Under the pieces are notes generated by a model, which was not told where the DNA came from, did no database searches, and saw nothing but the letters and a program-made list of their open reading frames with translations. A DNA stretch of 55,897 nt from Thioalkalivibrio sp. ALE14 (GTDB lineage: Bacteria; Pseudomonadota; Gammaproteobacteria; Ectothiorhodospirales; Ectothiorhodospiraceae), in NCBI RefSeq assembly GCF_000376845.1, contig NZ_AQXY01000018.1:1-55897 (forward strand), read 5' to 3'. Positions 17,256 through 21,399 of the stretch are shown here, in pieces. Made by a program: the position numbers and the translations under genes. The first letter of the stretch is position 1. Each line of letters starts with the position of its first letter.

Positions 17256-17515
17256 GCGATCGCGAGACCCTGATCGAGTTTCCCTGCCGTTTTCCGGTGA
17301 AGGTGATGGGTGACGCCCACCCGGAGCTGATGGAAGCGGTCGAGGGCTGTGTGGCGGAACATCTCGACGCCGAGGACGCGGTGATCCAGCAGCGCGCCTC
17401 GCGCGCCGGCCGCTTTGTCGGCATCACCATCACCTTCACCGCGACCAGCCAGGAACAACTGGACGCCTTCTACCGGTCCCTGGGCCGTTGCGACCGGGTG
17501 CGCATGATCCTGTGA
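17252..17515 (+). CDS. ybeD: DUF493 / YbeD family protein
   Basis: A small 87-residue ACT-like-fold protein of the YbeD family, whose function is not established; it is commonly encoded between dacA and lipB, as here. Conserved features are [14 protein letters not shown] near the start and the ending [14 protein letters not shown]. Its ATG overlaps the dat stop (ATGA), and its TGA overlaps the GTG start of lipB, so the three genes are translationally chained. Confidence 0.92.
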
Positions 17516-18216
17516 CGCCTGGGCGGGTCGAGGTACGCGAACTCGGGCTGCAGCCCTACGTCCCGGTATGGCAGGCGATGCAGCTCCACGGGCGCGAGCG
17601 CGGGGCCGCTGACCCCGACGCCCTGTGGTGCGTGCAGCACCCCCCGGTCTTCACCCAGGGGCGCAATGGCCGCCCCGAACACCTGCTCGATCCCGGGGCC
17701 GTGCCGGTGGTGGCGATCGACCGCGGCGGGCAGATCACCTATCACGGGCCCGGCCAACTCGTCATCTACACTCTGCTGGATCTCAGGCGGCTCGGGATTG
17801 GCGTGCGGCGTCTGGTCGAGTGCCTGGAACAGGCCATCATCGAGACGCTCGCCCAATGGGGTATCGCGGCCGAACGTCGGGCGAATGCGCCCGGCGTCTA
17901 TGTCGGGCACGCAAAGATCGCGGCACTCGGCTTGCGGGTGCGGCATGCCCGCAGCATCCATGGCCTCGCCCTGAACGTTGCGCCGCTGCTGGCGCCGTTT
18001 GCGCGGATCAACCCCTGTGGCTATGCGGGCCTGGCGACCACTTCCATGCAGGCGCTCCTGGCCGGGCCGGTCGCAATCGACCGCGTTCGCGACGCGCTCC
18101 TGGCGAATCTCGCCGCACAGCTATTCCCGGACCGGGATTCTCCATTCCTGCATGAGCCGGCGCTGCCAGCCGAGCTGGTGCGGGTCCAGGCCCTGGGGCG
18201 TTGCCCGGCGCCGTAA
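17512..18216 (+). CDS. lipB: Octanoyl-[acyl-carrier-protein]:protein N-octanoyltransferase
   Basis: LipB transfers octanoate from ACP to lipoyl domains, the first step of lipoate synthesis; LipA (19175-20131) then inserts sulfur. I choose the GTG at 17512, overlapping the ybeD stop as GTGA, giving 234 residues. With this start the catalytic dyad falls at K135 (HAKIAALG) and C169 (INPCGYAG), the same numbers as in E. coli. [14 protein letters not shown] is the substrate motif. Unlike the common arrangement, lipA is not co-oriented here but convergent, with a large palindromic repeat between the two genes. Confidence 0.94.
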
Positions 18217-18370
18217 CACGTCGCCCGCGTTTCCGAAGGCTGGCCATGCCCTAGCCTTTGGAGCTTTTCGTGCCGCCTGCCTGGTTGTGGCTGGTCCCGG
18301 TTCGTCGTCCGGTGTTTACGGTGCCTTCGTCGAGCCGCCTGCCACGCGCTCTCTCGCGAGCGCACCGCGA

Positions 18371-18400
18371 GGCACTTCTTTGCTCGTGCAAAGAAGTGCC
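18371..18400. terminator. Perfect hairpin in left half of repeat
   Basis: A 13-bp perfect stem with a TCGT loop, containing TTCTTTG/CAAAGAA. It is about 155 bases after the lipB stop and could serve as a bidirectional terminator in the convergent interval, although there is no long T tract. Confidence 0.4.
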
Positions 18401-18911
18401 CAAGAAACACGCCCGACTGCCGCGACCCCGGCCCGCTGCGCGGGCCGGGGTTTCCCTCGCTCCGAGGCTTTTCGCGGGCGGCGCTGAACTCGCTACGCCT
18501 GCGGCTCCGCTCAGACATCCAGCGCCTCTCCTCCCGCGAAAAGCCTCTCCACTCGGCGCGACGACAATGGGGGGTTCAAGGTCAAAACAACGGCGATTCA
18601 CACGTGCATGCCAATAGATGAAGGCTGGGTCTTCCGGCATCTGGGCACGCTCGGCCTGCGGCCGTTGCGTGCCGCGCCCGCGCTGCGGGCGCCGGGGGCT
18701 TTCGGGCGGCGATGCCTATGGTTAGGCGGAAGCGTGGGGATACGGTCGGTTTTGACCTTCGCCTCCCGTATGAAGCCCCTCGCGGAGGGCGTGATGGGCC
18801 GGAAGAAGGCGCTGGATGTCTGAGCGAAGCCGCAGGCGTAGCGAGTTCAGCGCCGCCGGCCCAGCACGTCCGGAGCGAGGTTCCCGGGCGGAATCCGGGT
18901 GTCCTTCTTTG

Positions 18912-18941
18912 GGTCCTTTCTTGGACAAGCAAGAAAGGACC
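18912..18941. terminator. Perfect hairpin in right half of repeat
   Basis: A 12-bp perfect stem (GGTCCTTTCTTG and its complement) with a 6-base loop. The identical structure occurs in copy 1 at 476-505, so it is a conserved part of the repeat. Confidence 0.4.
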
Positions 18942-19174
18942 TCGGGGCGCGCTGGCGAGTCAGCGCTCGGCAGTATGTGGACCGGAGCTACCGTAAACAC
19001 CGAAGGACGAACCGGGACCAGCCACAACCAGGCAGACGGCGAGTCCAAGCCCCCAGAAACAACCGATGATCAACCCGGCCTGGTTACTGGGCGCCTTGGC
19101 GCGGACCCGTGAACGTCCGAAGCCACCCGGACGCGCAACGGACGCGTTGCCCGGCACGGCCTGCCCGGGGCGGG

Positions 19175-20131
19175 TCAGGCGGTTTCGAGGCCCTGGGCCT
19201 GGAGGTCGGCGTGATAGGACGAGCGGACCATCGGACCGCTGGCCACCTGCTTGAAGCCCATCTCGCGCGCCCGCTCGCCCAGCTCGTCGAACTCCTCGGG
19301 CGCGAGGAAGCGCGTGACCGGCAGGTGATGGCGCGACGGCTGCAGGTACTGCCCCAGGGTCAGCATGTCGCAACCGTGATCGCGCAGGTCCTGCAGGACC
19401 TCCAGCAACTCCTCGCGGGTCTCGCCCAGGCCCAGCATCAGGCCGGACTTCGTGGGGACGCCGGGATGCTGCTCGCGGAACTGCCGGAGGAGCTCCAGCG
19501 ACCAGGCATAGTCGGCCCCGGGGCGCGCCTCGCGGTACAGCCGCGGGACGGTCTCCAGGTTGTGGTTGAAGACGTCCGGCGGCGCCTGGTGCATGATCTC
19601 CAGCGCGCGGTCCATGCGCCCGCGGAAATCGGGCACGAGGATCTCGACCCTGGTGTCCGGGTTCCGGCTGCGGACCTCGCGGATGCAGTCGACGAAATGA
19701 CCGGCACCGCCATCGCGCAGGTCGTCGCGATCCACCGAGGTGATGACGACGTAGTTCAGTCCCAGGGCCTGGATGGTCTCGGCCAGGTGGCGCGGTTCGT
19801 CGGCGTCCAGGGCCTCGGGGCGGCCGTGGGCGACGTCACAGAACGGGCAGCGCCGGGTGCAGATGTCGCCCATGATCATGAAGGTGGCGGTGCCGTGGGC
19901 GAAGCATTCGCCCAGGTTGGGGCAGCTCGCTTCCTCGCAGACGGTGTGCAGCTTCTGTTCGCGCAGGATGCCCTTGATGCGCTGCACTTCGGGGCGCGCC
20001 TGGCTTTGGGCGCGAATCCACTTCGGCTTGCGCTGCGGGCGTTCGGTCGGGTTGATCTTGACCGGGATGCGGGCAACCTTGTCGGCGGCGCGCTGCTTCT
20101 CTCCGGGCTGGGGGCGGGTGCGTGTATCCAT
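19175..20131 (-). CDS. lipA: Lipoyl synthase (radical SAM)
   Basis: LipA inserts two sulfur atoms into the protein-bound octanoyl group made by LipB. I place the start at the ATG at 20131 (318 residues); the frame extends upstream into the HDOD gene but that part is not LipA-like. Both iron-sulfur motifs are present: auxiliary cluster [12 protein letters not shown] (C65, C70, C76) and radical [11 protein letters not shown] (C91, C95, C98). The C-terminal RSSYHA that ligates the auxiliary cluster is intact. It follows the HDOD genes by 62 bases on the same strand. Confidence 0.96.
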
Positions 20132-20193
20132 GGACCTTCCCTGAATCTCTCTGGCGGCCGGGGTACAGCCGGCCGGCGTGGGGCGATACCGGG

Positions 20194-21399
20194 TCAGGCG
20201 ACCTGACGGATCAGTGCCTCGACTTCCTGCCGCGCGGTCTCGATGGACGGCAGGCTGCCATCCTCGTCGAGGATGAAGCCGAGCCGTTCCAAGGCGCGCA
20301 GATCGGCAAGCGGGATGCGGTCGGCGAGCGGGTCGTCCTCGGCATCCCGCGGGCACGCGGCACGGGCGATCCGCACGATGTCCGTCAGGACCGGGGCCTC
20401 GGGGTTTTCCGGGCCGCCGGAATCGCGAATAGCGTCGATGATATCGGATGCCAGATCCCATTGCTGAGCAACCAGTTCGCCGATCAGGCCTTCCAGCCGG
20501 AACAGTACGCGCTCGACCTCTTCCGGCGTACGCCCCGGATGGGAGCGGGCGATCTCGGCGATTACGGGCAGGGCCCCCACCCGATGCAGCAGGCCGGCGA
20601 GCAGGGCGGTCTGTGGATCGACCGCCTCGCACTGGTCGGCCAGCACGCAGCTGATCGCCGCGATGCGGGCAGAGCGGCGCCAGAGGCGTTCGAGCAGATC
20701 GTGGTAGGGACTGTCGCGATGAATGAAGACCTGGTGCATCGCCAGGGCCATCACCAGCTGGCGGGTGCGCTCGAGCCCCAGGCGCGCAACCGCGTCCTGC
20801 AGGCGGGCGACCTCGCGGCGGCTCCCCATGGCGGGACTGTTGGCCACGCTCAGCAGGCGCCCGGCAACGCTCGGGTCTTCCTCGATGATGCGGGTGGCCT
20901 CGGCGATCGAGACATCCGGATCCTTCAATGCCTGCTGCAGGTGCAGCGCGACCTCGGGGAGCTGGGGCAGAGCGAGTTCGCCCGAGTAGGCATGGGTGTA
21001 GATGCTGCCGAACAGCTCACCCTCGAGGTCGGACAGTTCGATCTCGCTGACTTCCACGCTGTCCTGTCCGCCGCCGTCCACCAGCGTCTCGAAGACCTTG
21101 CGGTCCAGCATTGCCAGGGTCGCGCGCGTCGCGGCGATTGCGTGGCTGTGGTAGTCGTGGGGTTCGAACAGCGGATTGAGGGCCTCGCTGGAGTCGCCTT
21201 TCAGCATGACCGAGTTGCGGCCGCTGGCCAGGATCATGCGGCCCTCTAGCAGGAAGATCATGCTGCGGAATTCGTCCCGCGCATGCAGCTTGAAGCCCGG
21301 GTCCACCGTCATGGTGCGGGCATGCTGCAGCAGCTTGTTGCGGGCGCGTTCGCTCAGCTCGGCGAACGGACGCAACTGGGGAAGGCGTTCCTCGATCAC
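20194..21399 (-). CDS. HDOD-domain protein with N-terminal cyclic-nucleotide-binding-like domain (1)
   Basis: The 401-residue protein starts with GTG. Residues ~15-115 look like a cyclic-nucleotide-binding beta-roll ([16 protein letters not shown]) but without a clear phosphate-binding cassette. Residues ~135-340 are an HDOD domain ([41 protein letters not shown]), related to HD phosphohydrolases but lacking catalytic histidine-aspartate pairs. HDOD proteins generally act in signalling, for example cyclic-di-GMP, motility or stress. No partner kinase or GGDEF gene is nearby. It is a paralogue of the gene immediately upstream, 6 bases away. Specific function unknown. Confidence 0.82.

Follow-up and report, generated by a model that had tools for sequence, protein, structure and literature searches.

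What is the long palindrome that lies between lipB and lipA in Thioalkalivibrio sp. ALE14? A first-pass annotation of this DNA, a stretch of 55,897 nucleotides to which we refer as the window, had described a nested inverted repeat at positions 18277-19035 and offered three guesses on its nature, namely a MITE-like transposon, a paired non-coding RNA locus, or a strong convergent terminator. The names of both genes are taken over from that annotation; lipB was compared to relatives by tblastn. The features discussed below are listed in Table 1.

Table 1 Features of the element between lipB and lipA and of its second copy, in window coordinates.
Feature	Positions	Strand	Remarks
Second copy, cut by the contig start	1..598	+	86% identity
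Right-half pseudoknot motif of second copy	458-503
lipB, left neighbour	17488..18216	+	convergent
Terminator-like hairpin of lipB	18231..18263	+	ahead of the element
Whole element (core and terminal inverted repeats)	18272..19040	.	repeat search, copy comparison
Left end repeat	18272..18329	+	copy of the ~61-bp repeat, also solo or in tandem elsewhere
Left pseudoknot, predicted	18371..18411	- (RNA)	S2 18411-18408; L1 (putative third strand) 18407-18402; S1 18400-18389 with 18382-18371; loop with S2' 18388-18383
Left long hairpin	18464..18547	-	contains the inner arm
Asymmetric centre	18528..18806	.	without recognised conserved gene
Right inner arm	18807..18860	+	GATGTCTGAGCG...GCGAGTTC hairpin region
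Right pseudoknot, predicted	18900..18941	+ (RNA)	S2 18900-18903; L1 (putative third strand) 18905-18910; S1 18912-18923 with 18930-18941; loop with S2' 18924-18929
Right end repeat	18983..19040	-	inverted
lipA, right neighbour	19178..20200	-	convergent

The inverted repeat proved to be real, and the element extends about 5 nt further on each side. In a repeat search of the window, the end arms (58 nt) were found to be 90% complementary and the inner arms (54 nt, 18474-18527 with 18807-18860) 96% complementary. The A/T-rich hairpin proposed for each half corresponds to 12-bp stems at 18371-18400 and 18912-18941. The description as a two-armed palindrome needs refinement: the complete halves are only about 72% complementary, and about 280 nt in the centre are asymmetric. 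The halves represent paralogous modules, which face in opposite directions and are about 72% alike. The palindrome is not a product of chance, as the core could be aligned over 21 full copies from several genomes (majority consensus of 733 nt). Outside the core lie more loosely conserved end repeats of about 61 bp, which occur also in tandem on contig C28 and as one solitary repeat on contig C10 of the same genome. Loci in two other genomes of the genus (L022 and L023) carry the same modules with a different centre, and their terminal inverted repeats differ too and start with TGAGCTGGCGCTGCGG; this suggests a fixed core around which the ends can be exchanged. Some lipB/lipA copies (L141, L144, L147, L149, and L150) have a short GTTGTTGATCAACAAC-like palindrome that either extends the S1 stem described below at its base or takes the place of this base.

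By sequence search, we found the element at 19 places in its own genome, comprising 12 full-length copies, 6 copies cut by contig ends, and 1 rearranged copy (C21); the copy noticed earlier at the start of the window is one of those that are cut. Six contig ends of the assembly fall inside element copies (position 1 of the window, the start of C24, and the ends of C5, C13, C26, and C28), so draft assemblies may undercount the element. Further genomes of the genus were positive as well, with matches in 17 of 30 (E up to 0.001, own genome included), and at the level of the family 20 of 38 genomes, belonging to 2 of 4 genera, were matched. A best match to LipA was found in all 30 genomes of the genus, and the element lies beside lipA in 13 of them, in 4 of which contig ends fall inside it. 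It was not detected at the other 17 lipA loci, among them L167, where the contig stops; four of the 17 were inspected and have lipB-lipA gaps of 117, 83, 70, and 234 nt. In one genome (G004, locus L161) the lipB-lipA gap contains a different inverted repeat. The lipB/lipA element is present in reversed orientation in two species (L143 and L147), and in two species (L149 and L150) both of its halves resemble the right half.

When the flanks of 126 element pieces were clustered by single linkage, each of the 19 places shared a group with one or more loci from other genomes; a few links may be spurious (two loci of the own genome are merged in one group), and loci fetched twice inflate group sizes. 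Together with the occupancy of 13 of 30 lipB/lipA loci, this grouping points to an old resident. Among 27 full copies, mean identity was 86.1% within the own genome (66 pairs), 87.8% at orthologous loci (25 pairs), and 87.1% at non-orthologous loci between genomes (249 pairs). These nearly equal values suggest that positions are inherited while sequences are homogenised.

Each half contains a 12-bp hairpin with a 6-nt loop, and the adjacent tail is complementary to that loop. Along the outward strand, each module consists of S2, the pyrimidine loop L1, the 5' arm of S1, a loop with S2', and the purine arm of S1; across modules, S1 comprises 12-14 bp and S2 about 4-5 bp. Comparison of the modules shows that the outward strand of each can fold into an H-type pseudoknot. 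A complement of at least 4 between loop and tail was present in 66 of 90 unique pairs, a set that still includes a few wrong-strand rows, compared to a mean of 16.4 and a maximum of 26 in 2000 permutations; 5 of the 90 pairs were without a complement of 3 or more. Wrong-strand or spurious rows were dropped ahead of a set of 83 modules. From its alignment A4 (80 modules, three references omitted), in which stems of different length are out of register and which was therefore not counted, 35 modules with the longer stem (A5) were picked by eye for a common stem length; another 22 with the shorter stem (A6) were chosen by hand, and 26 of the 83 modules belong to neither set.

In the 35 gap-free aligned modules, 93.6% of the pseudoknot cells are paired, with 99.5% in S1 (11 G.U cells and 2 unpaired cells) and 75.7% in S2 (24.3% unpaired). 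Changes on both sides were observed in 11 of 16 pairs (7.9 in shuffled alignments), and there were 97 double-change cells (25.4 in shuffled ones). The covariation score was 0.467 vs 0.180 after shuffling, with 0 of 500 shuffles as high, and reached at most 0.139 when the alignment was slid. The number of further pair types (23) was not above that of the shuffles (20.9; 84 of 500 as high), and 5 of the 12 S1 pairs are invariant in these modules. S1 and S2 covary in the manner expected of two interlocked helices. The repeat is present in many copies, its modules covary, and no named IS was met; this differs from a single-copy repeat with neither covariation nor transcription, or a derivative of a characterised IS, which the first-pass annotation had named as refuting outcomes.

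In the 35 modules, each of the 245 positions at which L1 is set against the purine arm in one parallel register (245 of 245) combines T with A or C with G, a count which needs no parsing of modules. When L1 and arm partners were shuffled, the mean fraction was 0.852 and the maximum 0.918 (2000 shuffles), and an antiparallel register with an equal number of positions fits at 221 of 245. The C/G positions of L1 and arm shift jointly through three places in these modules, with one double and one empty case. The 22 modules with the shorter stem, chosen by hand, have a register of their own, at which 129 of 131 positions fit; L1 and arm agree on the C/G place in 21 of these modules. L1 is a mirror of the stem and not a direct repeat, and its C follows the G where the G of the purine arm moves. 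Among 53 asymmetric modules, 48 have a second A-run in the arm that is equal to the final T-run of L1 (maximum of 31 in 5000 shuffles); the 53 comprise 48 mirror, 3 direct, and 2 other cases, and 4 of the 83 modules were left unparsed. Of the five misfits, two (L192 and L206) are misreadings by the pattern of arms that carry two Gs.

Two other counts were set aside. A first mirror-repeat parse of 49 modules, which often took the base of the stem for the third strand, yielded 17 exact mirror and 2 direct cases and, by closeness, 25 modules nearer to the mirror, 16 nearer to the direct repeat, and 8 ties. A 7-mer mirror test, in which a base from outside the triplex was counted as well, resulted in 31 mirror, 6 direct, and 15 tied cases (n = 52).

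L1 thus matches the purine arm as parallel Hoogsteen U.A-U and C+.G-C triples would. One could argue that covariation of this kind is a by-product of hairpin self-correction, i.e. of template switching at quasi-palindromes, rather than a sign of function. Such correction can hold S1 and S2 complementary; however, it yields inverted repeats and not a mirror relation between L1 and S1, and the core persists over many genera and two phyla, so that we regard this explanation as hardly credible. Comparison shows a conserved pseudoknot fold with a sequence-matched third strand; that it acts as RNA, and at transcript ends, is what we infer.

Telomerase RNA and the SAM-II riboswitch contain major-groove triplex pseudoknots, in which the triples are located in loop 1, and the pyrimidine third strand of the outward strand sits in the corresponding place. 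The likeness extends to the H-type architecture, to a pyrimidine loop 1 on a purine-pyrimidine stem, and, as predicted for the modules, to U.A-U and C+.G-C triples. In contrast to those RNAs, the modules are dispersed, paired bacterial repeats without evidence of kinship to them, and their triplex is deduced from covariation only. As to the strand, modules with an S2 of at least 4 show 13 S1 mismatch cells that would be G.U on the outward strand vs 2 on the inward strand, one of the latter being a wrong-strand row. The few wobble-like mismatches of S2, judged by eye, run opposite to this trend and are G.T on the inward strand (L176, L202, one L192 module, and one L012 form). Minimum free energy folds of the two halves had z-scores of -3.0 and -4.1 on the outward strand, compared to -2.0 and -5.5 on the inward strand, and folding energy thus leaves the strand undecided.

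A further indication of RNA comes from some relatives. TwoAYGGAY RNA (RF01731) is a candidate structured RNA listed in PMC2864571. When 20 loci were scanned against Rfam, L187 and L213 had a match to it on the outward strand, immediately 5' of the pseudoknot, with scores slightly over the gathering score (46.0 and 44.2 vs 43); by coordinates, it also lies 5' of the pseudoknot in genomes G184, G255, and G281. The right inner arm of the window element occupies about the same place as the TwoAYGGAY hairpins in some relatives. The element resembles TwoAYGGAY in being a candidate structured RNA, and in these relatives the TwoAYGGAY hairpins precede the pseudoknot without a break on one strand. As to differences, the Rfam alignments in L187 and L213 stop before the pseudoknot, and the family had no match in the three Thioalkalivibrio genomes searched (G000, G008, and G012). 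It likewise gave no match at 17500-19600 of the window (E up to 5), nor in L001 at the gathering score. Our Rfam scans returned no model for the pseudoknot itself. In L040, the 20-locus scan also detected a cobalamin riboswitch, which lies apart from the element. All 6 matches from a scan of the lipB/lipA locus were implausible, far below gathering scores, and were discarded.

The clan of RF01731 in our scan, CL00106, is one that we take to comprise CsrA-binding RNAs. The element might accordingly encode a small RNA that titrates CsrA/RsmA-type proteins via GGA loops, with the pseudoknot as a stable 3' end. The position of RF01731 in L187 and L213 would fit this, as would the observation that 14 of the 23 RF01731-positive genomes (23 of 370 matched, 14 over the cut-off) are also positive for the pseudoknot motif, compared to 85 of 370 overall. 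Yet 9 of the 23 are motif-negative, other modules carry a different hairpin at that place, and RF01731 had no match in the three Thioalkalivibrio genomes mentioned above; we regard titration as very unlikely.

The structure could also act in DNA, as an extruded cruciform or as single-stranded DNA with an H-DNA-like intramolecular triplex, with an effect on replication or supercoiling between convergent genes. In favour of this, T.A-T and C+.G-C triplexes form in DNA too, and the palindromic character of the element is strong. We nevertheless consider this option unlikely, as the G.U bias of the S1 mismatches to one strand (13 vs 2), the interlocked S2 helix, and the TwoAYGGAY neighbour are RNA-like features. 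Among the three original guesses, the paired non-coding RNA locus is the one best supported, with a covarying pseudoknot in each half and some evidence that points to RNA from the outward strand.

The gene context bears on what such an RNA might do. Of 13 copies in the own genome with genes called on both sides, 9 are flanked by convergent, 4 by co-directional, and none by divergent genes; most of these genes are supported by Pfam, those at L033 rest on base composition only, the right neighbour at L002 is an integrase fragment, and L006 was counted as convergent on Pfam evidence against the call of the script. As background, the 48 neighbouring gene pairs of the window comprise 5 convergent, 37 co-directional, and 6 divergent pairs according to the same simple caller, which is rough, misses lipA, and likely errs elsewhere. 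This contrast (9 of 13 vs 5 of 48) supports a role at transcript ends. Within 18150-19250, three terminator-like sites were predicted (shuffles: mean 1.3, sd 1.3), one of which is lipB's own, and no sigma-70-like promoter site was found. The lack of such a site and the presence of lipB's own terminator-like hairpin weaken the transcript-end role. At the 6 of 7 Ilyobacter places that were examined, for which the gene table is incomplete, 1 convergent, 3 co-directional, and 2 divergent contexts were observed, and a 3'-UTR role is therefore not general. The proposal of a strong convergent terminator thus retains only the convergent majority in the own genome: the 4 co-directional copies, the hairpin that lipB has ahead of the element, and the missing convergent bias in Ilyobacter speak against it, and a pure terminator role is disfavoured.

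Beyond the genus, we searched with R1, a covariance model of the 46-nt motif that describes the hairpin only, whose E-values are rough, and whose strict filters lose weak matches. In the Gammaproteobacteria, 85 of 370 genomes and 71 of 272 genera were positive at a per-genome E of up to 0.001, 3 of the 85 belonging to Thioalkalivibrio. Among 397 Pseudomonadota genomes, 69 were positive, including 21 outside the Gammaproteobacteria, of which 20 are members of family f192. Blastn with one 52-nt module gave no match in phages or in E. coli genomes. Of 72,556 plasmid records, 8 matched a 49-nt form (Caballeronia 5; Ilyobacter, Chitinibacter, and Variovorax 1 each). The match on the plasmid of Ilyobacter (Fusobacteriota) was confirmed by R1 (58.2 bits), and this replicon contains 7 places. 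These AT-rich Fusobacteriota copies on pILYOP01 (L236-L246) retain the predicted pseudoknot, and most of six of them have an ACTCGC...GCTCAGACAG hairpin resembling that of the window element.

Pairing is widespread as well. An inward-facing second full-length motif was found about 350-760 bp away in 15 of 27 non-Thioalkalivibrio loci (L171-L197; E up to 0.1, flanks of at most 1.5 kb), and 16 of 19 motif hits on one Caballeronia replicon form 8 inward pairs 430-460 bp apart. Family f192 also has some motif pairs (L203 and others) with the opposite arrangement, in which the two motifs point outward at a distance of about 65-80 bp.

The element might be a selfish, non-autonomous one, similar to MITEs or REPINs, in which the modules serve as recognition ends and a trans-acting transposase or reverse transcriptase reads the folded RNA, or single-stranded DNA, as a tag; host benefit would be unneeded, and placement on the 3' side of genes would be what selection leaves. 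A dispersed multi-copy family with inverted ends and without a recognised gene (as judged from alignment gaps) is MITE-like, and to this extent the initial suggestion of a MITE stands. The regular inward pairs on the Caballeronia replicon and at 15 of the 27 loci, the patchy occurrence that reaches Fusobacteriota, and the 6 Ilyobacter copies without a gene-orientation rule point in the same direction. In contrast to MITEs, a parent transposon with the same ends was not met at the loci examined, loci are common to several species, and no target duplication was seen by eye at lipB/lipA when compared to the short gaps of L151, L152, and L153, the site being an old one.

The comparison with REP/BIME/REPIN sequences leads to a similar picture. 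According to PMC3733652, these are intergenic palindromic repeats with units of 20-40 bp, often arranged as inverted doublets. The element shares the intergenic palindromic character and the inverted doublet, but it is much larger, as anticipated by the first-pass annotation (about 760 bp with a core of 733 nt vs 20-40 bp units), and no RAYT-type gene was flanked by it at the loci examined. Specifically, 26 loci drawn from 77 Y1_Tnp places (L111-L137 less L136, some of them overlapping, with all 5 places of the own genome included) carry no piece of the element or of its end repeat, and Y1 transposase genes occur in the element-free genomes G002 and G003. One of these loci (L121; G005:C1:1652462-1657093) contains four tandem Y1-transposase-like genes, about 1.4-1.5 kb apart. 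A selfish origin and maintenance is, on balance, a serious possibility short of being probable.

We favour an RNA-level transcript-end structure borne on a MITE-like repeat, with the selfish recognition tag as a close rival, and both may hold. Tentatively, we regard the element as an ancient, dispersed, non-coding repeat of two structured modules in inverted orientation, whose outward RNA would form a sturdy structure at transcript ends, an assignment drawn from comparison of sequences. A transcript from either neighbour would pass through the first module in the inactive sense and would have the folding sense at the second one, which lies close to the far end of the element. There, the triplex pseudoknot might hinder 3'-5' decay or onward transcription, and a convergent gene pair would gain one barrier for each gene. 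Entry into loci would be rare and MITE-like, with copies kept alike by recombination. The outward-facing pairs of f192, the failures of S2, and the inward lean of the S2 G.T mismatches weaken this reading. The protonation that a C+.G-C triple requires counts against it as well.

Palindromic repeats of the dispersed type are known, as are triplex pseudoknots, and their union has not been described as far as our searches show; among the top-ranked results of a literature search with partial full-text coverage, we found no description of the element or of the pseudoknot. Overall, the modules probably represent a bacterial RNA family that spans Pseudomonadota and reaches into Fusobacteriota, with a telomerase-like triplex pseudoknot in paired, inward-facing repeats and a role in either transcript-end protection or their own mobility. 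To our knowledge, few triple-helix pseudoknots are known. A third strand that is legible from covariation alone in dozens of genera would provide a large natural data set on triplex rules and a ready test system. It would further place the TwoAYGGAY candidate RNA within a larger architecture, and it would account for one type of long palindrome found between the genes of proteobacteria, where genome assemblies can break.
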